A stretch of 64,000 nucleotides of DNA from Opitutia bacterium. GTDB taxonomy: Bacteria > Verrucomicrobiota > Verrucomicrobiae > Opitutales > Opitutaceae. This document shows, piece by piece, positions 5,313-59,004 of the stretch (position 1 is the stretch's first letter; every line of letters begins with the position of its first letter). The stretch is taken from the NCBI GenBank assembly GCA_947442255.1, contig CANEVO010000005.1:33956-97955 (forward strand). Direction: 5' to 3'. A program made the position numbers and the translations under genes. The notes beneath the pieces were generated by a model. It saw only the letters and a program-made list of their open reading frames with translations, was not told the DNA's origin and searched no databases.

Positions 5313-6668
5313 ATGCCGCACCATGCCGACACGATTGCCGCCCTCGCCACCCCGGTGGGCACGGCCGCGCTCGCCGTCCTGCGCATAAGCGGACCGGATA
5401 CGAGTCGGATCACCGCGGAGATTTGTCCCTCGCTCCCACCCCGGCAGGTACGCCATGCGGATTATCGCGACCGGCACGACCGGCTGGTGGACGACGTGGT
5501 CGTCACGTTCTTCCAAGGACCACGATCGTACACCGGGGAGGACGCGCTGGAGATTTCCTGCCACGGCAACCCGTTCATCGCACAGCGAATCCTTGAGGAC
5601 CTCTTTGCCCGCGGCTGCCGGCCGGCCGAGCCGGGGGAATTCACGCAGCGGGCCTTTCTCAACGGCCGGATGGATCTCAGCCAGGCCGAGGCGGTGATGG
5701 ACTTGATCCATGCCCGCAGCGAGCGAGCTCTCACCGCCGCCCAGCAACAGTTGCGCGGGGCCCTCGGCCACCGCATGAATGCCCTGGTGGAGGCGCTGCT
5801 CGGCGTCCTGGCGCGGGTGGAGGCCTACATCGACTTTCCCGACGAGGATCTGCCCCCGGAAGACCAGGGCGCCGTCGCCGCCGAGATCAAGCGGATGGCT
5901 CGTGAATCCGAACGCCTGCTCGCGACGAGCCACTATGGGGAACTCCTGCGCGACGGCATCAAGACCGTGATCGTCGGCGCACCCAACGTGGGCAAAAGCA
6001 GCCTGCTCAACCGACTGGTGGGTCGCGAGCGGGCGCTGGTGAGCCCGGAGCCGGGCACCACGCGTGATTTCATCGAAGAGCGAATCATCGTGGGGCCGCA
6101 CTGCCTCCGCATCATTGACACCGCCGGTCTGAACGCCTCCCCCGCCCCGCTCGAAAAACTCGGCATGGATAAAACGCTCGAACGGCTGGCGGAGGCTGAC
6201 CTCTTTCTCGTGGTGGCCGACGCCACCCGGCCCGCCGACGCGCTGCCGGAGGAATTGCTTTCCTGGATACGACCGGATCGGACCCTGGGGGTTCTGAATA
6301 AAATCGATGCGGCACCGGCGGCCCGGCCGCCGGAAGCCCTGCCTGGGGCGACAGAATGGGTGCGTGTATCGGCGATGACCGGCACCGGGATCGAGGAGCT
6401 CATCCGCCGTATCGTCGCCCGGGCCGACGCGTTTCAGCCGCTCGTCGGAGATGAAGTCATCGCCATCAATGCCCGCCATGCCCATGCCTTGCGCGCGGCG
6501 CAGGAAGGGCTTCAACGCGCCCTCGCCAAAGTCGAATCCGACGGGCCGGTGGAGCTCCTCGCCAGCGATCTCCGGACTGTGCTCGCGGCTTATGAGGAAA
6601 TTCTGGGAAAAGTGGACAATGAGCGGATGCTCGACCAACTCTTTGCCTCTTTTTGTATCGGGAAATAG
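5313..6668 (+). CDS. mnmE: tRNA uridine-5-carboxymethylaminomethyl GTPase MnmE
   Basis: MnmE (451 residues) works with MnmG to install the cmnm5/nm5 group at U34 of tRNAs. The N-terminal tetrahydrofolate-binding domain begins DTIAALATPVGTAALAVLRI. A helical domain is interrupted by the G domain, whose P-loop GAPNVGKSS lies at about residues 222-230, with DTAGL (G3) and NKID (G4). The protein ends in the invariant C-I-G-K. Its partner mnmG follows 44 bases downstream, which supports co-transcription. Confidence 0.97.
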   Translation: MPHHADTIAALATPVGTAALAVLRISGPDTSRITAEICPSLPPRQVRHADYRDRHDRLVDDVVVTFFQGPRSYTGEDALEISCHGNPFIAQRILEDLFARGCRPAEPGEFTQRAFLNGRMDLSQAEAVMDLIHARSERALTAAQQQLRGALGHRMNALVEALLGVLARVEAYIDFPDEDLPPEDQGAVAAEIKRMARESERLLATSHYGELLRDGIKTVIVGAPNVGKSSLLNRLVGRERALVSPEPGTTRDFIEERIIVGPHCLRIIDTAGLNASPAPLEKLGMDKTLERLAEADLFLVVADATRPADALPEELLSWIRPDRTLGVLNKIDAAPAARPPEALPGATEWVRVSAMTGTGIEELIRRIVARADAFQPLVGDEVIAINARHAHALRAAQEGLQRALAKVESDGPVELLASDLRTVLAAYEEILGKVDNERMLDQLFASFCIGK

Positions 6669-6712
6669 GCGAAGAGCGATCGCTTCAGCCGCCCAGATAA
6701 AGATTTATAACA

Positions 6713-8581
6713 TTGATTTACAACGATTTAAAGTTTGATGTCATCGTCTGCGGCGCGGGCCACGCCGGAGTTGAGGCCGCATTGGCAGCCGCACGGATGG
6801 GCGCCTCTACCCTACTCCTGACCGGCAATATCGATTCGATTGCCCAGATGAGCTGTAACCCGGCCATTGGTGGCCAAGCTAAGGGGCAAATGGTCCGCGA
6901 GATCGATGCGCTCGGGGGCGAGATGGCCATCAACACCGATGTCACGGCGATTCAATTCAGACTTCTCAATGAGTCCAAAGGCGCAGCCGTTCAATCGCCG
7001 CGCGCCCAATGCGACAAGAAAGCCTATCAGTTCCGGCTCAAACATACGCTGGAGCTGCAAGACGATCTTCAGGTATTCCAAGCCTTGGTCACGAGCCTCA
7101 TTTTCGAACACAATCGGGTTGTTGGTTGCCGGACAAATCTCGACATCGAATTTCGGGCTCCGGCGGTGGTCGTTACCACCGGGACATTTCTACGCGGCCT
7201 GATGCACATTGGTCAGAATAAAAATGAAGGCGGACGTTTGGGCGATTTCAGCGCAAAGACCCTCTCAGCAAGCCTGCAGGAGGCCGGCATAGAACTTCGC
7301 CGATTGAAGACCGGAACTCCGCCACGGTTGCTCGGGCGAAGCCTCAATTTCAGCAAGATGGAGGAACAACGCGGCGATCCGGACCCGACATTCTTTGCCT
7401 TCCACGATACCCGAGACCCCGAGAATCTGTTCCACGTGGAACATACCGGCGAACAGCGCTTGGGATGGAGCCCCGGATGTGAACAAGTTTCGTGCTGGAT
7501 GACTTACACAACGCAAGAGACGGCTCAGATCGTCCGGGACAACCTTCATCTCTCGGCAATGTATAGCGGTGAGATTGAGGGCGTGGGGCCAAGGTATTGC
7601 CCAAGTATCGAGGATAAATTCGTTCGCTTTGCCGACAAGCCCCGGCACCTGCTTTTCCTCGAACCCGAGGGCCGGACGACCAACGAATTTTATGTGAATG
7701 GCTTGTCAACAAGTTTGCCGTTCGACGTTCAGCTCCGCATGGTCCACAGCATCCCGGGCCTTGAAAAGGCCGTCTTACTGCGGCCGGCCTATGCCGTCGA
7801 ATACGACTTTGCGCCGCCTACGCAGCTTTATCCCACGCTTGAGTCAAAGAAGGTCGAGGGGTTGTTTTTTGCCGGACAGATCAACGGCACGTCAGGCTAC
7901 GAGGAAGCCGCCGTGCAGGGCTTGGTCGCGGGCGTAAATGCCGTAAATAAGGGGAGGGGAACGGCTCCGATGCTGATCCAGCGGCACGAAGGCTACACGG
8001 GCGTCCTCATCGACGACTTGGTCACTAAGGGCACAAATGAGCCCTATCGGATGTTTACCAGCCGGGCCGAACACCGGCTGCTCTTTAACCACGCTAGTGC
8101 CGAACTCCGTCTGGCTCACCATGCCGAGAAGCACGGGCTCGTTTCGAAGCCCCGGCTCGAGCGTATCGCGGCCAAAAGAAAAGCGATCACCGATTGGATT
8201 AAACGGCTGGAAACCACCCGGGGCCCAACTGGAACATGGGCGGAAATGATACGACGAGATCGAACCACCATCCTTCCACAAGATTTTACTGAACAGCCAC
8301 GGGCCGTGCGCGACGAGGTGATCTATCGTGTCAGTTACCAAGGCTATCTGGCACGCGAGGAGCGGCAGATCGAGAAGCTTTCACGGATCGAAGGGATTCG
8401 AATACCGAAATCGCTTAATTTTCTATCTATAAGTGGCTTAAGAAAAGAAAGCGCCTTGAAACTCACTGATATGCAACCGATGACGCTCGGCCAGGCGAGT
8501 CGCATTAGCGGGGTAAATCCAGCCGACATCATGGTCCTGTTGATTACCATTGAAGCGGGCAGGGGAAGAGAGGCGACCTAA
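6713..8581 (+). CDS. mnmG: tRNA uridine-5-carboxymethylaminomethyl synthesis FAD enzyme MnmG (GidA)
   Basis: MnmG (622 residues) is the FAD partner of MnmE. It has the dinucleotide fold [17 protein letters not shown] near the N-terminus, [20 protein letters not shown], the second nucleotide signature TGTFLRG, and the C-terminal helical domain that contacts MnmE and tRNA. The start is a TTG at 6713; no ATG in frame fits the conserved [11 protein letters not shown] start. The coding DNA is visibly less GC-rich than flanking genes. A segment around residues 230-250 looks longer than in typical MnmG proteins and contains the parS-like palindrome at 7428-7443. Confidence 0.96.
7428..7443. other. 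parS-like ParB-binding palindrome inside mnmG
   Basis: TGTTCCACGTGGAACA is a perfect 16-base palindrome. It matches the known chromosomal parS pattern (GTT-N-CACGTG-N-AAC) and is the same type of site as in pseudomonads. It overlaps codons 239-244 of mnmG (reading L-F-H-V-E-H). parS sites cluster near the replication origin and load ParB for chromosome segregation. parA/parB are not in this window. I saw no second perfect copy here. Confidence 0.7.
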
Positions 8582-20486: not shown

Positions 20487-21197
20487 TCAAGACCCGTTGA
20501 TCGCACTACGCAGCCAGTTCCAGGCATACTGCACGCCCTCCACCCCAAAGACGGCGATCGCGCCAAAAAAACCCACGGTCACCAGCGTCGCGCCGTGCCC
20601 TGCGATGATGAACGCCCCATCGCGCTCCAGCAGCCCGCCGGCGATCAGCAGGATGGCCCAGGCGGGAACCACGTTGCTGAAAGGAATCGGCAGCGGCAGC
20701 AACAACATCGCCGCGCAGATCACCACGGAAATTGCATGCAACTGCTCCAAACGCGGCGAAGCCGTCACCCACAGGAAACGGGGCCGCAGCAACCGTTCGA
20801 ACCAGATCAGAATCTTCTGCGTGACGGCAAAAACCTTTGCGAAGAATTTCGGCGGCAACCGGGTGTCGAGCAACCGGGCCGGCAGCCAGGGCTTCTCGCC
20901 GAGGGCCAGCCGGATGCCGATCAACCCAATCACGAGTCCGAACGGGGTCGACAACCCGGGCAACGGGATCGGGCCGCAGAACGGCAGCGCCAGCAGCATC
21001 ATCAGCAGCATATAGCCCCGCCAGTGCAGCAAACCCATCACCTCGCGCAGCGTCACGGTTTCCACTTCAAACTCGCGCAGGATCATCGCGAACTCCTCCG
21101 ACAATTTGCGCGGCCGTAGCGGATCGGCCGGCACGATGACGGAGTGGCCGGGCACGGGAACCCGCGACGGATTCTCAGGTTCCGCGCCGGTTGCCAT
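20487..21197 (-). CDS. ExoD-family membrane protein
   Basis: A 236-residue protein with the ExoD pattern: an N-terminal cytoplasmic helix (LREVMGLLHWRGYMLLMMLL), the signature PFCGPIPLPGLSTPFGLVIG, then GEKPWLPARLLDTRLPP and three C-terminal membrane helices. ExoD was first linked to exopolysaccharide production and alkali tolerance in Sinorhizobium; its biochemical role is unclear. Its start overlaps the end of queE by 23 bases on the same strand, suggesting co-transcription but not a shared function. Confidence 0.85.
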   Translation of the reverse strand: MATGAEPENPSRVPVPGHSVIVPADPLRPRKLSEEFAMILREFEVETVTLREVMGLLHWRGYMLLMMLLALPFCGPIPLPGLSTPFGLVIGLIGIRLALGEKPWLPARLLDTRLPPKFFAKVFAVTQKILIWFERLLRPRFLWVTASPRLEQLHAISVVICAAMLLLPLPIPFSNVVPAWAILLIAGGLLERDGAFIIAGHGATLVTVGFFGAIAVFGVEGVQYAWNWLRSAINGS

Positions 21198-21870
21198 AAA
21201 GTTCGAGGTGCAGGCGGTGCGCGTAGCGATAGCCCCGGGCCTTGCACAGCTCTCCCAGCCACTCCGCCCGCCCGAGGATTTTTTCCAGCGTCGTGCCCTC
21301 CGGCATCAGCAGCACCTTGTGCCGTGGAACGTCGCGCTTCAGCGCCGCGAGCATGGCCTCGAGTTCATCGACATCCTCCGGCCGTGCGACCACGAACTTG
21401 AATTGATAGGGATAGCGATCGATCCAGGCCCGCACCACGTCCGGCTGCCAGCGGGTGGCTTCGTGCTTTTTGCGCCACGCCGCGTGCTCGATTGGATCCG
21501 GCGCGGAGTTCAACAGCTTGGGCGACAGCGACGCGAGATCGCAGGCGATGTCGCCCGGCGCAATCGTTGCCGCGGTTTCGATGGTGATATGGCGGCCGCT
21601 TTTCCTCAGCTCGGCCGCGAGATCGCGCAGCTCCTGGGCGAGCATCGGTTCACCCCCGGTCAGAACAACGTGGCGCGTCCGGGGATGCGCTTCCACCGCC
21701 GCGACGATCTGCGCCACGGTCCGGTGCTCCCCCTCGGGATTCCACGAGGCATAGGGCGTGTCGCACCACGTGCAGCGCAAATTGCAGCCGCTCGTGCGCA
21801 CAAAAACCGACGGCATGCCAGTGAGCTCACCCTCACCCTGGAGCGAATGGAATATCTCGGCGATCAGCAT
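21175..21870 (-). CDS. queE: 7-carboxy-7-deazaguanine synthase QueE
   Basis: A 231-residue radical SAM enzyme of queuosine synthesis, turning carboxy-tetrahydropterin into 7-carboxy-7-deazaguanine. It has FHSLQGEGELTGMPSVFVRT then C29-x3-C33-x2-C36 (CNLRCTWCDT) for the 4Fe-4S cluster and the SAM site VLTGGEPML. It follows queC on the same strand, and QueC uses its product. Only a hairpin repeat separates the two genes; the start codon is adjacent to the repeat. Confidence 0.95.
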   Translation of the reverse strand: MLIAEIFHSLQGEGELTGMPSVFVRTSGCNLRCTWCDTPYASWNPEGEHRTVAQIVAAVEAHPRTRHVVLTGGEPMLAQELRDLAAELRKSGRHITIETAATIAPGDIACDLASLSPKLLNSAPDPIEHAAWRKKHEATRWQPDVVRAWIDRYPYQFKFVVARPEDVDELEAMLAALKRDVPRHKVLLMPEGTTLEKILGRAEWLGELCKARGYRYAHRLHLELYGNRRGT

Positions 21871-21872
21871 CG

Positions 21873-21946
21873 AACAAAGAGAACGAGAACGATTACGAGC
21901 AGGAGAACGAGCTGCGATTTCCTCGTTCTCTTAATCATTCTCTTTT
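21873..21946 (-). repeat. Hairpin repeat between queC and queE, GAACGA-type arms
   Basis: On the minus strand, GAGAATGATTAAGAGAACGAG-like sequence is followed by a 10-base loop region and a complementary arm rich in CGTTCT (CTCGTTCTC pairs perfectly with GAGAACGAG). The first arm encodes the last residues and the TAA stop of queC. The queE start codon follows within a few bases of the second arm. The arms resemble those flanking the four-helix-bundle gene at 60.4-60.9 kb (both contain GATTA-AGA/CGA within A/G-C-GA repeats). Confidence 0.6.
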
Positions 21947-22626
21947 TTCGGTTTGGCCGGCAGTAGCGCCAACGAGGCGTAAACCGTCGGATCCACCAGC
22001 TCCGCCGCGACAAAGGCCTCCCGCCGTTCGACGCAGGTGCCGCATTTGCCGCAATGCATCGGCCCGCCTTTGTAGCACGACCAGGTGCGCGCGAAATCCA
22101 CCCCGAGCCGGGTCCCCTCAACCGCAATTCCGGCTTTGTTCAGCGCGATGAAAGGACGGAGCAGCTGTACTTCGACATAGGTGCCAAGCCGCATCGCATC
22201 GCCCATCGCCCGCATGAAGTCCTCGCGGCAGTCCGGATAGATCGCGTGGTCGCCGCCGTGCGCTGCGATCACGAGTCCCGCCGCACCCACGCTCTCCGCG
22301 AAACCGGCGGCAATCGAAAGCATGATGGCATTCCGAAACGGCACGACCGTCTGCTTCATGTTTTCCGCCTCGTAATGGCCCTCCGGAATCTCGCCACCGC
22401 TCTTCAGTAGGTCAGACGCAAACAGCCGGTTCACGAAATCGAGCACGATCACCTCGTGCCGCGCGCCGATCCGCGCAGCGTGCTCCGCGGCAAACGGGAT
22501 CTCCCGATGGTTGTGCTTTGCGCCGTAGTCGAAGCTCACGGCCGCGACCACCTCATGTCCGGACCGCGCCCAATGGAGCGCCGTCACGGAATCCATGCCG
22601 CCAGAGCAAAGCACTACGACTTTCAT
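21931..22626 (-). CDS. queC: 7-cyano-7-deazaguanine synthase QueC
   Basis: A 231-residue ATP-dependent enzyme making preQ0 from the QueE product. The PP-loop is VVLCSGGMDSVTALHWA. The zinc site is CYKGGPMHCGKCGTCVERR. ATG 22626 directly precedes KVVVLCSGGMDS; longer readings are out of family. The C-terminal K-E-N-D and stop codon lie in the adjoining repeat. queD and queF are not in the window. Confidence 0.96.
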   Translation of the reverse strand: MKVVVLCSGGMDSVTALHWARSGHEVVAAVSFDYGAKHNHREIPFAAEHAARIGARHEVIVLDFVNRLFASDLLKSGGEIPEGHYEAENMKQTVVPFRNAIMLSIAAGFAESVGAAGLVIAAHGGDHAIYPDCREDFMRAMGDAMRLGTYVEVQLLRPFIALNKAGIAVEGTRLGVDFARTWSCYKGGPMHCGKCGTCVERREAFVAAELVDPTVYASLALLPAKPKKEND

Positions 22627-53705: not shown

Positions 53706-55052
53706 CTAACGAAGCACGCCCTGCGCCTCCGCCACGAGCGGCGATGCCGCGAGGGCAACATCGGCGGGTCGGGCGAGACCGAGCCGGGCCATCCGGGCTT
53801 GCAGCGTCAGGTAAGCCAGCGACGCCATCTCGCTTCCCGCCGCCTGTTCGGCGGCTTGGGCCACCGCTTCGGCCGGAATTGTCGCCGGATCCACCGGCAG
53901 GAGCTTCTTCTCCGCCAGAAACAACCCGAGCGAAACATCCAGCGTATCCAGCCACGCGCGCGGCCGCGCAGATGGCGTAAAGACGAATTGCGCCGACGCC
54001 GGCGACCACTCCATGAACGTGCGCAGCTGGTTGTGCAGTTTGGCCAGCTCGGCATCCGCCGTGGCGGGCGTCCAGCGCACCTGAAACATCTTTCTTTCGC
54101 GGAATTTCCTCACCTCCCAGACCCGGAGCACCAGTTCGTAGTCGCCCGACTGCTGGCGCAGGGCGCCGGTGAAAGCATAGTCGACGCCGCCTTCGACCGA
54201 ATCAACGAGCTGGCGGAGGTTCTCGGTGGTCAACTCCGCCTCGAAAATCGCCGGGGCGCTCGGCCCGTCCGGACGGTTCATCAGGCCGACCGCGGTGACG
54301 GGGGCATACTGCGCCGCAAAGGAAAACGTTTCCGTCAACCACAGCGGGATCGCGAGCGCCAGCCGGTTGAGTTCGGCGCCTGGGCTTTTTTCGCCGCCAG
54401 CGGGAGAGCCGGGCACCGCCAGGTGGCAAAAGGCCAGCGTCCGGCTCCGCCCGGATTTCGTCGGTAGAATCCGTTCCGCCAGCGGCTCCAGGCCGTAGAA
54501 CCAGATCGGCTTGCTGATGCTGATCATCGAGAGTTTTGGTGCTTCCGGCTGCGCGCCGCCGTCGGGCACGCCCAGCGCCGCCGGACTCACGTCGAGCATC
54601 ATATCGGCGATGACATTCGAAAAGCCGTGGAGCCGTTCCTCGAGTTCCGGCCGGTTCAGCGCAAACAGAAGGTCGAGCACATGCTGCGCGGCGTCCGCGT
54701 TACGGACCGCGATATACGCCTGCAGCAGATTCAATCCCGTCGCCGGCCCGTGCCGGTCGGCGTCGTAACGCGGCGCGATGAGCTCGATGATCTGCGTGAT
54801 ATGCCCCTGCGAACCGAGGTCCCCGGAGATCGTCACCAACACGTCGGCCCGCTCGCCCGCCGTAGCGAGCATCTCCTCGTAGATAGCCAAGGCGCCTGCG
54901 AGATCCTTCGCTTCAAGTTTTTCCCGCGCCACCATCAGGTTGGATTTCACTCCGCCACTGGTTGGCGGCGGCGGGACCGAGGCCTCGGGAACAGTTCGCG
55001 GCGAGGGGTCCGGCCCCTGCTTCTTCGAGGAAAAATGGTCGAAAAATCCCAT
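53706..55052 (-). CDS. Conserved hypothetical protein with N-terminal TPR-like region
   Basis: A 448-residue protein I do not recognise. It begins MGFFDHFSSKKQGPDPSPRT, a low-complexity Pro stretch, then TPR-like helices (REKLEAKDLAGALAIYEEML) and a longer alpha/beta region with WFYGLEPLAERILPTK and GGVDYAFTGALRQQSGDYEL. No signal peptide or membrane helix is seen. The open frame extends to 55655, but that extension runs through the rhombosortase remnant in the wrong frame and is not coding. Confidence 0.65.
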   Translation of the reverse strand: MGFFDHFSSKKQGPDPSPRTVPEASVPPPPTSGGVKSNLMVAREKLEAKDLAGALAIYEEMLATAGERADVLVTISGDLGSQGHITQIIELIAPRYDADRHGPATGLNLLQAYIAVRNADAAQHVLDLLFALNRPELEERLHGFSNVIADMMLDVSPAALGVPDGGAQPEAPKLSMISISKPIWFYGLEPLAERILPTKSGRSRTLAFCHLAVPGSPAGGEKSPGAELNRLALAIPLWLTETFSFAAQYAPVTAVGLMNRPDGPSAPAIFEAELTTENLRQLVDSVEGGVDYAFTGALRQQSGDYELVLRVWEVRKFRERKMFQVRWTPATADAELAKLHNQLRTFMEWSPASAQFVFTPSARPRAWLDTLDVSLGLFLAEKKLLPVDPATIPAEAVAQAAEQAAGSEMASLAYLTLQARMARLGLARPADVALAASPLVAEAQGVLR

Positions 55053-55117: not shown

Positions 55118-55693
55118 TCAGGGACTCTCGCCCCGCCGCCGCCACGGGCACGGCAGCAGGAATCCGACTGCAGCGCAAAGCACTCCCGCCACATGGGCGA
55201 GCGGCACGGGCTGCGCCTCGGCATAATCGAACTCGGCCAGCATCGACCGCCGCGCGTAGGCTTCGGCCGCGATCTTGAGCGCGATGAGCACCAGCACGGA
55301 GTGCCAGAACCAGCGCCCACGCCAGCAGGGCGAGCACCCCCCGCGGCCACGCCCGACAATCCGCGGTAGTTTGCCATCTCCCGGTCAAAGGCGAGCAACA
55401 CCAGGCCGATGAACGGCGATCCGACCAGGTAGAAAAACCGCGTCCGCCACGGCACCAGCCGCTCCGCCCAAATGCCGGCGGGCAAAAAGATGGCCAGATT
55501 CCAGAAAAGGTGGCTCCCGCCGAAATGCACGATGTAGGCCGTCCACAGCCGCGACCAGACGCGGGAGAAGGCCCGGTTAATTTCCAGCGCGTCCTCCGCC
55601 CCCCGGCCAAGCTTGGACCGCAAGCGCGAGCACGGCCACGGTGAACGTGGCTCAAGGCAGCCGGCTTTGCGTGACTCGCCAGCCCGGTTTCAT
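55118..55693 (-). pseudogene. Rhombosortase (rhomboid-family protease), broken
   Basis: The gene is readable only across frames. ATG 55693 gives MKPGWRVTQSRLP, an in-frame TGA (55652-55654), then TFTVAVLALAVQAW. A shift in a G-run leads to ALEINRAFSRVWSRLWTAYI, VHFGGSHLFWNLAIFLPAG and the catalytic ANYRGLSGVAAG (Ser). A shift in the C-run at 55337-55342 leads to VLALLAW. A third shift leads to WFWHSVLVLIALKIAAEAYA and PVPLAHVAGVLCAAVGFLLP (catalytic His). Order and motifs match rhombosortase. One stop and three frameshifts make it a pseudogene, unless the assembly is in error. It starts one base after the rhombotarget gene. Confidence 0.8.
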
Positions 55694-55694
55694 G

Positions 55695-56546
55695 TCAACG
55701 CCTCCGCCTCCACTCGCGCACGCCGACGAGCAACGCAAGGATCAGCACGAATCCGGCGTCGAAGGATCCGCCTTCCCGGCAGCCGGGCTTGTGCTCGATT
55801 CTCGCCACGGCCCCGGGGGCCTGTTTCACCCGGGTGCGAAAATCCTCGAGCTGCGTTTTCAGATTCTTGATGAGATCGTCCGTCGCCAGATCGAAGCCCT
55901 TGGCGCTGTCCTGGCGCAAACGGGCCTGCACGTAGACGCCGGCGGCACCGTCTGTGACCTGGCTGCCACCCGGCGCCCGAAACAACAGGTGCCGGCTCGG
56001 GATGTCGTAAACGGCGGCCTCGAGCAGCGTCTGCGTATCGTTCTTGTTCCCCTGGAAAATGTAGGCGCCCACGATCGTCCAATACGCCAGGGAAAGGAAA
56101 TTCGCATCCGTGAACTGGACCTGATCGTAGGCCACCAACGCCACGATGTCGAAATTCAACAACCGACGGACCTAGTCGAGGTTCTCGAACCCGCCCGCAG
56201 CGTGCAGATAAGTCGCGGGCACGACCTCGATGGACTCGATATACTCGATGCCCTGGAATTGCGCGGCCACCCGCTCCAACAAAGCGTTTTTCTGCAACGG
56301 AGAGATTTCGCCCGCGCCGCCGCTGGGGACAAACGCTATGCCGACGCGCAGAGGCAGGCGCAGCACGGGAATATCGGTGGGCGGAGGGGGGTTCGCCCGT
56401 TTTGGGTAAAGGAACGCGACGACGCTACTTGAGCGCTGCGCCCTCTGCCGGCCGGACCCATGGAAACAGCCAACGGCGCCCAAGAAGATGCCCCCCGCCA
56501 CCGCGAGCACGAGGGCGAGTCGAACACGCGCACACCCAATAGCCAT
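55695..56546 (-). pseudogene. Rhombotarget lipoprotein, interrupted by an amber stop
   Basis: Two open pieces lie in one frame. The first (from 56546) has a lipoprotein leader ending AVGC and runs to GGFENLD. An in-frame TAG (56172-56174) follows, then VRRLLNFDIVALVAYDQVQF, SLAYWTIVGAYIFQGNKND and YDIPSRHLLFRAPGGSQVTD. The C-terminus is Gly-Gly, a hydrophobic helix and Arg-rich (GGSFDAGFVLILALLVGVRE then W-R-R-R-R), a GlyGly-CTERM type sorting signal for rhombosortase. Family order matches rhombotarget lipoproteins, which sit next to rhombosortase. A single CAG to TAG change would explain the break. Confidence 0.8.
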
Positions 56547-56644
56547 GACGTGATCCAGTCGCGGAAATTGCACCGCTTCAACGCGAAAGAATGGCCGAAT
56601 GCAGGCTCCGCGCGGTCATCGCCGGCGCCAGCTCGACGGCCACC

Positions 56645-56930
56645 TCATTTCGGCCAGATCGGCGGAAGGGCGAGCACCCAGACGTCGCTCCGGTAGCCAC
56701 TGTCCTCGCCGAAGTAATATTTATCCGCGCCGCCCGTTATACCAGCCCCCCAGCAGCCACATCCGGTCCTTGAAAACCATTTCTCCAGAAGAGTCCCGGG
56801 GGTCGAATTCGGTGTTGCGCGTCACCAGTTTCCAATCCGGCGCCTGCGCGCGAGCTGGGGCGTGAAATGCGAACGCCCCCGCGAGAATCGCTGCGCCGAA
56901 AAGTGTCCGGATAATGGATGACGATATCAT
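56645..56930 (-). pseudogene. Secreted kelch-like protein remnant
   Basis: The first piece has a signal peptide (MISSSIIRTLFGAAILAGAF, cleavage near ARAQA), then DWKLVTRNTEFDPRDSSGEM and VFKDRMWLLGGWYN, a kelch-like start. It stops soon after. In another frame, immediately downstream, ADKYYFGEDSGYRSDVWVLA leads to LPPIWPK and a stop, which looks like the C-terminus of a kelch-like protein. The repeats in between are missing. I infer a large deletion plus frameshift. It lies in the same decayed zone as the rhombosortase pair. Confidence 0.55.
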
Positions 56931-57041
56931 GGTGCGGATAATTACACCTCGGACGTGAACCGCGTTGATCACTGGATCACCGCGAAAGGTTTGGGCGGGG
57001 AAACCCGGCCGGCCAGCGGCATGTTTTTCCCCGCCCCTGTG

Positions 57042-58076
57042 TCAGGGTTTTCGCGGCGCGACAATTTTTTCGGGCGACACTCCGGCCCGCAGCGCCACCA
57101 AGGCGTACACCTTGGGCACATACATCCGCGTCTCCGCCGGCAGCGCGTCGGCGACGCCGGCGAAATCCTTCACGCCTTTTTTTGTCAGCGCCCGGCTCAC
57201 GCGGCCCTCGCCGGCGTTGTAGGCGGCGAGCGCCAGCGGCCAGTCGCCAAACCGTGCATGCAGCGTCCGCAAGTATCGCGCCGCCGCGTGACCGGATTTC
57301 TCCGGGTTGGTGCGCTCATCCGGCAGGAACGTGCTCAGGCCCAGGGACTGCGCCGTTTCCGGCATGAACTGAAAAAGTCCCTTTGCCCCCGACGGACTGC
57401 GGGCCGCCGGGTTGAGCGAACTCTCCGCCTCGGCCAGCCAGGCAAGTTCCGCCGGGACGCCTTCCGCCACAAACGCCGCCCGCAACCCCGGCATCAACGC
57501 CGCGGCCCGCTCCGGGAGCGCGCGCCCGCTAACGCGGGTAACCCAGAGATCGTAGTGAGGCACGCGCGCAGACACCGCCGTGGACGGCCGCGGGACTGGA
57601 CCGGCCTTGGGCGGGGGCGTCGGAGCGGATGGTCGCGGCCCCGGTGGAGCCGGAACGGGCGGCGGGGTTGATTTCGTAATTTCTTCCGCGGCCTCAATCT
57701 CATCGATCCGTTGCTCCAGCCAGTCGGCGTAGTCCTCATACCCGGGCACCGCGCGCAATGCGGTGAGGGTGAGGCGCGCCTCCGGTAAATAAACGGCGAG
57801 GTCCGCGAGCGAATCGCTCTCGAGCGCGCGCTGCAGCCGCAGGCCAAACGCATCCCACTTTTCCTTCGTCGGAAATTCGAACTGCGCCTTGATCTCCGGC
57901 GAGGCGTAGGCGTCGAACAATTGCCTGCCAAGTTGGAAAAGATCGTCGGCCCCGGCGGGCTCCGGGGAGGCGGCCGGAGCCGCTGGCGAAGGCGCAGCCG
58001 TCTGGGCGGGCGCCGCAATCACCGCGGCCAGCACCGCCAAAACCATGCTGATGTCGCGCCCGGGTTTCATATCCAT
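57042..58076 (-). CDS. Exported lytic transglycosylase (SLT domain)
   Basis: About 344 residues. A signal peptide (SMVLAVLAAVIAAPAQTAA) is followed by a helical N-terminal region, a long Pro-rich linker (about 135-165) and a C-terminal SLT domain: the catalytic Glu in LAWLAEAESSLNPAARSPSG, AKGLFQFMPETAQSLGL, and DWPLALAAYNAGEGRVSRAL. It cleaves peptidoglycan strands in the periplasm. Its ATG overlaps the stop of the upstream phosphoesterase by one base (TGATG), so the two are coupled. Confidence 0.88.
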   Translation of the reverse strand: MDMKPGRDISMVLAVLAAVIAAPAQTAAPSPAAPAASPEPAGADDLFQLGRQLFDAYASPEIKAQFEFPTKEKWDAFGLRLQRALESDSLADLAVYLPEARLTLTALRAVPGYEDYADWLEQRIDEIEAAEEITKSTPPPVPAPPGPRPSAPTPPPKAGPVPRPSTAVSARVPHYDLWVTRVSGRALPERAAALMPGLRAAFVAEGVPAELAWLAEAESSLNPAARSPSGAKGLFQFMPETAQSLGLSTFLPDERTNPEKSGHAAARYLRTLHARFGDWPLALAAYNAGEGRVSRALTKKGVKDFAGVADALPAETRMYVPKVYALVALRAGVSPEKIVAPRKP

Positions 58077-58891
58077 CAATTTGCCGGCGCCAGGGCGGCG
58101 AGAACGGCCGCTTTCAATTTCAGCGTCGGGTGCTCACGCCACGCGATGGCCGGCGGGCCGAAGTAGCGGTCGGAATTCTTCGCGCCCCAATCCGTCGTGG
58201 CGATGCGGTAGGATCCTGCCGGATCGATTCCGGCCAGCCGGCCGGCCGCGAAACTGAATTCGCCGCTGCGCTGCGCGAAAGGCGTTTCGGGGCCTTCGTT
58301 CGCGAGCGCGGCAAGCTTTTGCAATCGCGTCCCGTCGACTTCGGCGGTGAAGACCGGGCCGTCGAACCGCACGCAGGCGTCGAAGTCCACGCGGTGCACA
58401 AAACGAAGATGGTCGTGCGCTCCCGCAAACAGGGTGCCCGCGGGCACGAGCGGGAGCACGGTCGAGGCGGGCGCCAGCGGTTGGCCCGTGTTCCGGTCGC
58501 GGGCGTTGCCACTGATGACCCCGACGGCCCGCAGTTTCGCGACGGTTTCCACCGGGTCTTGGAAATCGGGTTCGTGGTTGCCCAGGTTCAGGACCACGGG
58601 CGCGCGTTTCACCAACGCCGCAAACACGGCAAGGTCGATCCGGGCCGCGCTCCGGCGGGCGACCACGTTGCCGTATTCGAACGAGTCGCCGTTGATCAGG
58701 ACGGCGAGGGGCACGCCCGGATTCTCTCCCTTCAAGCGATCGCCGTGGGCGACGAGTTGCGCCGCCTTCTCGAAAGCGGAATGCTGGTCGCCAAGCACGA
58801 CCAACAGCGCCTTGGGCGCGGTCGCCGACGCCACTGGCAATGCGACGAAGGCGCATAGCCACCCGACACCGGAGCTGATAATGCGGCGCAT
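58076..58891 (-). CDS. Exported metallophosphoesterase
   Basis: About 271 residues. A signal peptide (MRRIISSGVGWLCAFVALPV, then ASAT) is followed by a calcineurin-type core: KALLVVLGDQHSAFEKAAQL, VLINGDSFEYGNVVARRS and VVLNLGNHEPDFQDPVE. The first block has D-Q-H where D-x-H is usual, which still satisfies the family. It resembles the N-terminal domain of 5'-nucleotidases but lacks their C-terminal domain. The following transglycosylase gene is coupled, suggesting envelope maintenance. Confidence 0.78.
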   Translation of the reverse strand: MRRIISSGVGWLCAFVALPVASATAPKALLVVLGDQHSAFEKAAQLVAHGDRLKGENPGVPLAVLINGDSFEYGNVVARRSAARIDLAVFAALVKRAPVVLNLGNHEPDFQDPVETVAKLRAVGVISGNARDRNTGQPLAPASTVLPLVPAGTLFAGAHDHLRFVHRVDFDACVRFDGPVFTAEVDGTRLQKLAALANEGPETPFAQRSGEFSFAAGRLAGIDPAGSYRIATTDWGAKNSDRYFGPPAIAWREHPTLKLKAAVLAALAPAN

Positions 58892-59004
58892 AGAGAAAAA
58901 GCGATCTCCAGACAGTGCGACCGCCACGGAAACCGGTCAACTCGACCACCGGCTTTCCCGTTTGACCCTCCCGGGGCGCCGGCTACCTCTGACCCTCCAC
59001 TAAT

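Follow-up and report, generated by a model that had tools for sequence, protein, structure and literature searches.

Dedicated pairs of a rhombosortase and an adjacent target protein are already known, and Opitutus terrae PB90-1 appears in a table of adjacent rhombosortase/GlyGly-CTERM pairs in Haft and Varghese 2011 (PMC3237569). The same paper mentions "decaying systems" and a rhombosortase fragment in Vibrio mimicus. PMC6219818 reports that in Vibrio cholerae the tail of VesB is cut by rhombosortase, which exposes the second Gly, and that this Gly carries a glycerophosphoethanolamine moiety. The NCBIfam model TIGR04179, which describes rhombotarget lipoproteins, serves as a tail marker in PMC5300114; our literature search found no assigned role for these lipoproteins in the texts it returned. 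Searches on rhombosortase likewise returned no study of an Opitutaceae pair, and those on rhombosortase, rhombotarget/rhombotail and GlyGly-CTERM pseudogenes returned no joint decay of such a pair.

Here we describe a decayed member of this known kind in a 64,000-nucleotide stretch of DNA (the window; 64.3% GC, without N). Like the dedicated pairs of PMC3237569, the window has a protease next to what is probably its single target, but in contrast to the one-sided absences among the cases drawn from that paper, enzyme and target are here broken together at a single locus. The pair resembles VesB and its rhombosortase in having a similar tripartite tail and a protease of the same family, although VesB is a T2SS-dependent surface protease (PMC6219818) whereas the target here is a lipoprotein. 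The locus is, with good probability, a dedicated rhombosortase/rhombotarget pair that was inactivated recently in an Opitutaceae-like bacterium.

Lesions in the lipoprotein and rhombosortase genes

Table 1. Features of the locus and its surroundings (positions in the window)
Feature	Position	Strand	Remarks
Metallophosphoesterase	58076-58927	minus	two in-frame internal losses (~63 and ~115 aa), ORF open
Lytic transglycosylase (SLT)	57042-58079	minus	open, in conserved gene order
Probable gene remnant	56640-56972	minus	between transglycosylase and lipoprotein; signal-peptide-like start
Rhombotarget lipoprotein (TIGR04179)	55695-56549	minus	ATG to TGA, split by one in-frame TAG
In-frame TAG of lipoprotein	56172-56174	minus	at invariant column
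C-terminal sorting tail of lipoprotein	55698-55784	minus	Gly-rich motif, hydrophobic stretch, Arg-rich end
Rhombosortase (TIGR03902 / Pfam Rhomboid) pseudogene	55118-55693	minus	in-frame TGA, three frame changes, ~10 codons missing
In-frame TGA near rhombosortase start	55652-55654	minus	
TPR-like protein	53706-55052	minus	open, downstream neighbour in conserved gene order

The original prediction, made from the sequence alone, named a rhombosortase and a rhombotarget lipoprotein, and searches with TIGR04179, TIGR03902 and the Pfam Rhomboid profile match both families. The predicted split of the lipoprotein by one in-frame TAG is borne out, with an open piece matching TIGR04179 on either side at profile positions 3-102 (E 1.1e-27) and 104-258 (E 1.9e-60) of 259; the TAG is therefore the sole visible break in the gene. 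The C-terminal piece scores 204.3 bits and the N-terminal piece 97 bits, against a curated cut-off of 150 bits and with the gene interrupted. An intact relative, P0001 (283 aa, 98% identical), reaches 326.6 bits against the same cut-off, and its closeness agrees with the earlier view that the loss is recent. In the window the product is predicted to stop after 125 of 283 residues, ahead of the tail. Together the two pieces match nearly the whole profile, as in the TIGR04179 family, but the window gene differs from members of that family in being interrupted and in its tail motif.

Both the lipobox cysteine, called by eye, and the Gly-rich/hydrophobic/basic tail can be read in the window lipoprotein, and the residues G26-C27 are invariant in 15 of 15 relatives. 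The tail had been described as still readable, which it is, but its motif is altered: two differences from P0001 lie beside the Gly-Gly, at P0001 residues 256 and 258, both of them columns invariant in 15/15 aligned relatives. By pattern scan it is the sole such tail in stop-to-stop frames of at least 100 codons in the window. The GlyGly-CTERM model TIGR03501 (22 positions) has no match in the C-terminal piece at E up to 10 and none in the intact proteins P0001 or P0035 at E up to 1; in a six-frame search of ten genomes it was silent everywhere, controls included, and is therefore uninformative on further targets. Across 75 columns that are 98% conserved, the two lipoprotein pieces show 4 deviations, whereas P0001 has 2 and the median relative none, and 4 are reached by one of 120 relatives; this is weak evidence.

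The rhombosortase gene starts one base past the lipoprotein stop, in keeping with the predicted adjacency, and its homology is spread over three frames. A model built from 16 relatives matches at positions 2-31 (E 2.4e-4) and 31-120 (E 6.8e-46), continues from 120 in a short weak stretch (E 0.085) whose residues are readable, and returns in the first frame at 136-195 (E 3.1e-22). The gene carries a TGA and three frame changes, two of them in homopolymer runs, as had been claimed; the runs are 6-base G runs at 55337 and 55599, and we read the third change as accompanying a deletion of about ten codons in comparison with P0122. TIGR03902 matches at 15-89 (E 1.1e-15) in one frame and at 106-152 (E 9.8e-4) in another, and Pfam Rhomboid matches at E 1.3e-6. 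Because the gene is broken, the TIGR03902 pieces fall short of the 84-bit cut-off (best 57.9 bits, second 19.1 bits); the gene is a pseudogene of this family and no working member of it. The GLSG and His segments are both readable, as predicted, though in different frames; we take the catalytic residues to be the Ser in GLSG and the His in the last helix. A search of close relatives for intact copies, proposed with the original prediction, yielded P0122 besides P0001. P0122 (200 aa, 97% identical over 88 core residues) scores 91.6 bits against 84, and with P0123 it gives two intact relatives in a single frame.

Extent of the damage around the pair

The gene order MiaB, metallophosphoesterase, transglycosylase, lipoprotein, rhombosortase, TPR is complete in four loci of relatives (L001, L003, L006 and L018), and transglycosylase, lipoprotein and rhombosortase occur together in 17 of 80 loci, these being the best 80 of 122 in a genome scan for the lipoprotein. 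In the window the transglycosylase and TPR genes are full-length. The metallophosphoesterase, a 5'-nucleotidase-like protein encoded two genes upstream of the lipoprotein, has 283 aa against about 450 in relatives. One of its losses falls in the 5'-nucleotidase C-terminal region, and the other lost block holds a THxGL-type stretch that we assume to be a metal ligand. The protein is probably inactive, but with its damage in frame and its ORF open it may be functional after all. The putative remnant beside the lipoprotein has 83 open codons before it goes out of frame and looks Kelch-like by eye; it gave no Pfam match at E 0.1, and a tblastn comparison with the 80 loci (L001-L080) found nothing at E 0.01.

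A 400-kb stretch of a related genome (G005, contig C70) spans most of the window at 0.5-22.6, 25.4-36.8 and 53.7-64 kb. Compared with it, the window's genes are single continuous matches except for the rhombosortase, the lipoprotein stop and the metallophosphoesterase; we read one further split, at 21178-22243, as overlapping alternative-frame ORFs. Contig C70 has almost nothing that corresponds to the region 36.8-53.7 kb, where the ORFs are open and look like coding sequence; of ten ORFs scanned between 36.8 and 52.1 kb, nine have Pfam matches, with no truncation visible by eye. A scripted count found 3 internal stops in 39 alignments (12,463 aa) in the compared parts of the window, among which the lipoprotein TAG appears, by our reading, to be the only one in a real reading frame.

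A script counting genes with lesions flagged 5 of 30 in the window, 2 of 48 in G005, 2 of 3 in G178 and 4 of 14 in G068 (the latter two are taken up below), and its list does not include the window rhombosortase. Of the window's five, the lipoprotein stands and the other four were rejected (two with margin stops, one with an overlapping-gene frame and one with a "frameshift" from alternative-frame ORFs), as were the three in G068 besides the lipoprotein, which have stops at alignment margins only. As far as the comparison goes, the damage appears local but wider than the pair, reaching the metallophosphoesterase and possibly the neighbouring remnant.

The pair in related genomes

In the family of genome G001, the lipoprotein is over the cut-off in 49 of 252 genomes, every one of which also has a TIGR03902 match (48 over the cut-off; G142 at 74 bits). 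By coordinates, the rhombosortase lies within 750 nt of the lipoprotein in 45 of the 49; the best TIGR03902 match is elsewhere in G133, G192 and G240, and in G002 the two genes sit at the ends of different contigs. The reverse does not apply: among 250 genomes, a rhombosortase over the cut-off is present in 135, of which 47 also have the lipoprotein and 88 are without a rhombotarget lipoprotein over the cut-off.

The lipoprotein is broken in two of the 49 genomes, by a TAA in G068 and by a frame change in G178, and the adjacent rhombosortase is broken in both. In G178 it carries an in-frame TGA; in G068 a frame change lies just ahead of the catalytic-His segment, with the rhombosortase model matching at 17-167 in one frame and at 167-197 in another (weak, E 0.1, exactly collinear). 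None of the best rhombosortase matches in the other 47 genomes has a stop or frame break (that of G209 is cut by a contig end). A flag on the rhombosortase of G020 proved to be its natural stop, and a stop at locus L057 lies just before the lipoprotein start; neither was kept as a lesion.

G178 was demoted as a strong second case of joint loss by the stops across its other genes: 10 internal stops, with all three stop codons, in 36 alignments (7,319 aa). Either many genes of G178 are decaying together with the pair or the assembly is of low quality, and the genome does not speak for a specific link. The stretch around its locus (L132, G178:C1:1260001-1660000) holds many internal stops, as in genome-wide decay or poor assembly. 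G068 has 3 internal stops in 45 alignments (16,439 aa), two of them in the margin before an apparent start codon, and by our reading the lipoprotein stop is probably its only real one. This genome is the one clean independent case of joint loss, apparently local. On the lipoprotein tree P0001, the proxy for the window, is far from both G068 and G178, which belong to the same group of ten rows (support 100/99) without being neighbours in it, and which carry different lesions.

In the genus of G271 (Zoogloea), 20 of 23 genomes have the lipoprotein. All 16 tailed copies are directly followed by a rhombosortase match (15 over the cut-off, G293 at 64 bits). The lipoproteins of G268, G269, G271 and G273 keep the body and have no tail (loci L058, L059, L061 and L066, around 6700), and these genomes have no rhombosortase over the cut-off, only a general rhomboid of about 400 aa. 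The four form one clade (support 100/100), and the change is therefore probably one event. DNA similarity between tail-less and tailed copies ends inside the lipoprotein and returns at the next gene, whose likely start is about 90 nt past the stop of the shortened lipoprotein. On the simplest reading, a single deletion would have taken tail and protease and left the body open, which is possible with the coding sequence of the tail lying next to the protease gene. The clade thus shows a body kept without processing, not two separate losses.

Other genomes follow other patterns. In the Zoogloea genome G266, a counter-example, the lipoprotein carries a stop and the rhombosortase is intact; the stops in G266 and G068 could be errors. 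At a Thioploca locus (L064) the tail is gone and no protease is encoded next to the lipoprotein, although the genome has a rhombosortase, and G255 and G281, which may be incomplete, keep the tail without a rhombosortase over the cut-off. Gallionella-type loci (L044, 351-1996; L067, around 5730-6880) carry two tandem rhombotarget lipoproteins, the upstream one without a tail; in L067 the upstream copy is a partial match only.

Origin and meaning of the losses

In intact relatives, the lipoprotein would be exported and, judging from its lipobox, acylated, and its Gly-Gly/hydrophobic/Arg tail would park it in the inner membrane until the rhomboid protease of the next gene downstream cuts the tail. 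A lipid may then be joined to the new C-terminus, by analogy with VesB of Vibrio cholerae (PMC6219818), and it is from this analogy that we infer VesB-type processing in intact Opitutaceae pairs. In the window the lipoprotein would end before its tail and the protease could not be made in one frame, which would leave neither partner whole. Selection would relax on both genes once either was lost, because they are close neighbours with probably one shared purpose. The lesions, the family assignments, the intact relatives and the gene order are observed directly, whereas co-transcription, the shared purpose, the order of events and the pair's loss of function are what we infer; as the damage also reaches the metallophosphoesterase, the gene that broke first cannot be told.

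It is unlikely that sequencing or assembly errors made the stops and frame changes and that both genes are intact in the organism. Two of the three frame changes do sit at 6-base G runs, and a protein from a separate 5,576-base ENA contig, P0121, lacks the change at 55599, which is therefore a polymorphic or assembly difference. When the protein database was queried with the C-terminal lipoprotein piece, none of the 40 hits at E <= 1e-40 was a TAG-truncated copy, the best reaching 76% identity, so the window is the one source for the TAG. However, P0121 matches the window at 100% identity over 229 aa, and the match extends into the wrong-frame stretch that follows the core; P0121 thus has the later frame change and the missing stretch in common with the window. 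That it starts at the first start codon past the place of the TGA suggests that it carries the TGA too, although P0121 and the window may derive from the same reads. Both stops are in register with homology on either side, and so look like substitutions and not indels, and in the compared parts the damage is confined to 55.1-58.9 kb despite 19 G or C runs of at least 6 in the window. Part of the window damage may nonetheless be an assembly difference. Far less credible still, to the point of deserving hardly any weight, is programmed recoding, in which stop read-through or frameshifting would keep the products functional: it would suit the lipoprotein, with its single stop and nearly unchanged second half, but not the four separate rhombosortase lesions and missing stretch, the relatives P0122 and P0123 with their single intact frame, or the changed invariant residues of the tail.

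A different cause for the same pseudogenes would be regional relaxation or hitch-hiking decay of 55-59 kb that has nothing to do with whether protease and lipoprotein depend on each other; this differs from the reading of a lost dedicated pair in cause alone, and we regard it as a real if rather doubtful possibility. The internal deletions of the metallophosphoesterase, the adjacent remnant and the joint loss in G178 amid stops in many genes fit such decay. Against it, the transglycosylase in between and the TPR gene after the pair are open and full-length, and in G068 the rhombosortase is broken beside what we read as the only real stop of that set of alignments. The original prediction held that a complete dedicated pair was lost together: both genes are indeed broken, but the metallophosphoesterase was hit as well and one frame change is missing from P0121. 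A dependence of protease and lipoprotein does not follow from one locus, and shared decay had been put forward as a test of it; run on the relatives, that test finds support in G068 and the Zoogloea clade, nothing informative in G178 and a counter-example in G266, so that the relatives give limited support.

Under the reading of the window as an inactivated dedicated pair, its main interest lies in the similar losses in some relatives. Tail and protease may form one removable module on a conserved lipoprotein, a suggestion we make tentatively and hold as possible more than probable, that is lost together either through joint decay, as in the window and G068, or through clean excision, as in G268, G269, G271 and G273. 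Dedicated sorting pairs have so far been inferred from co-occurrence, and joint loss of enzyme and signal, above all in the tail-less Zoogloea clade, would give natural experiments on what this lipoprotein gains from C-terminal processing.
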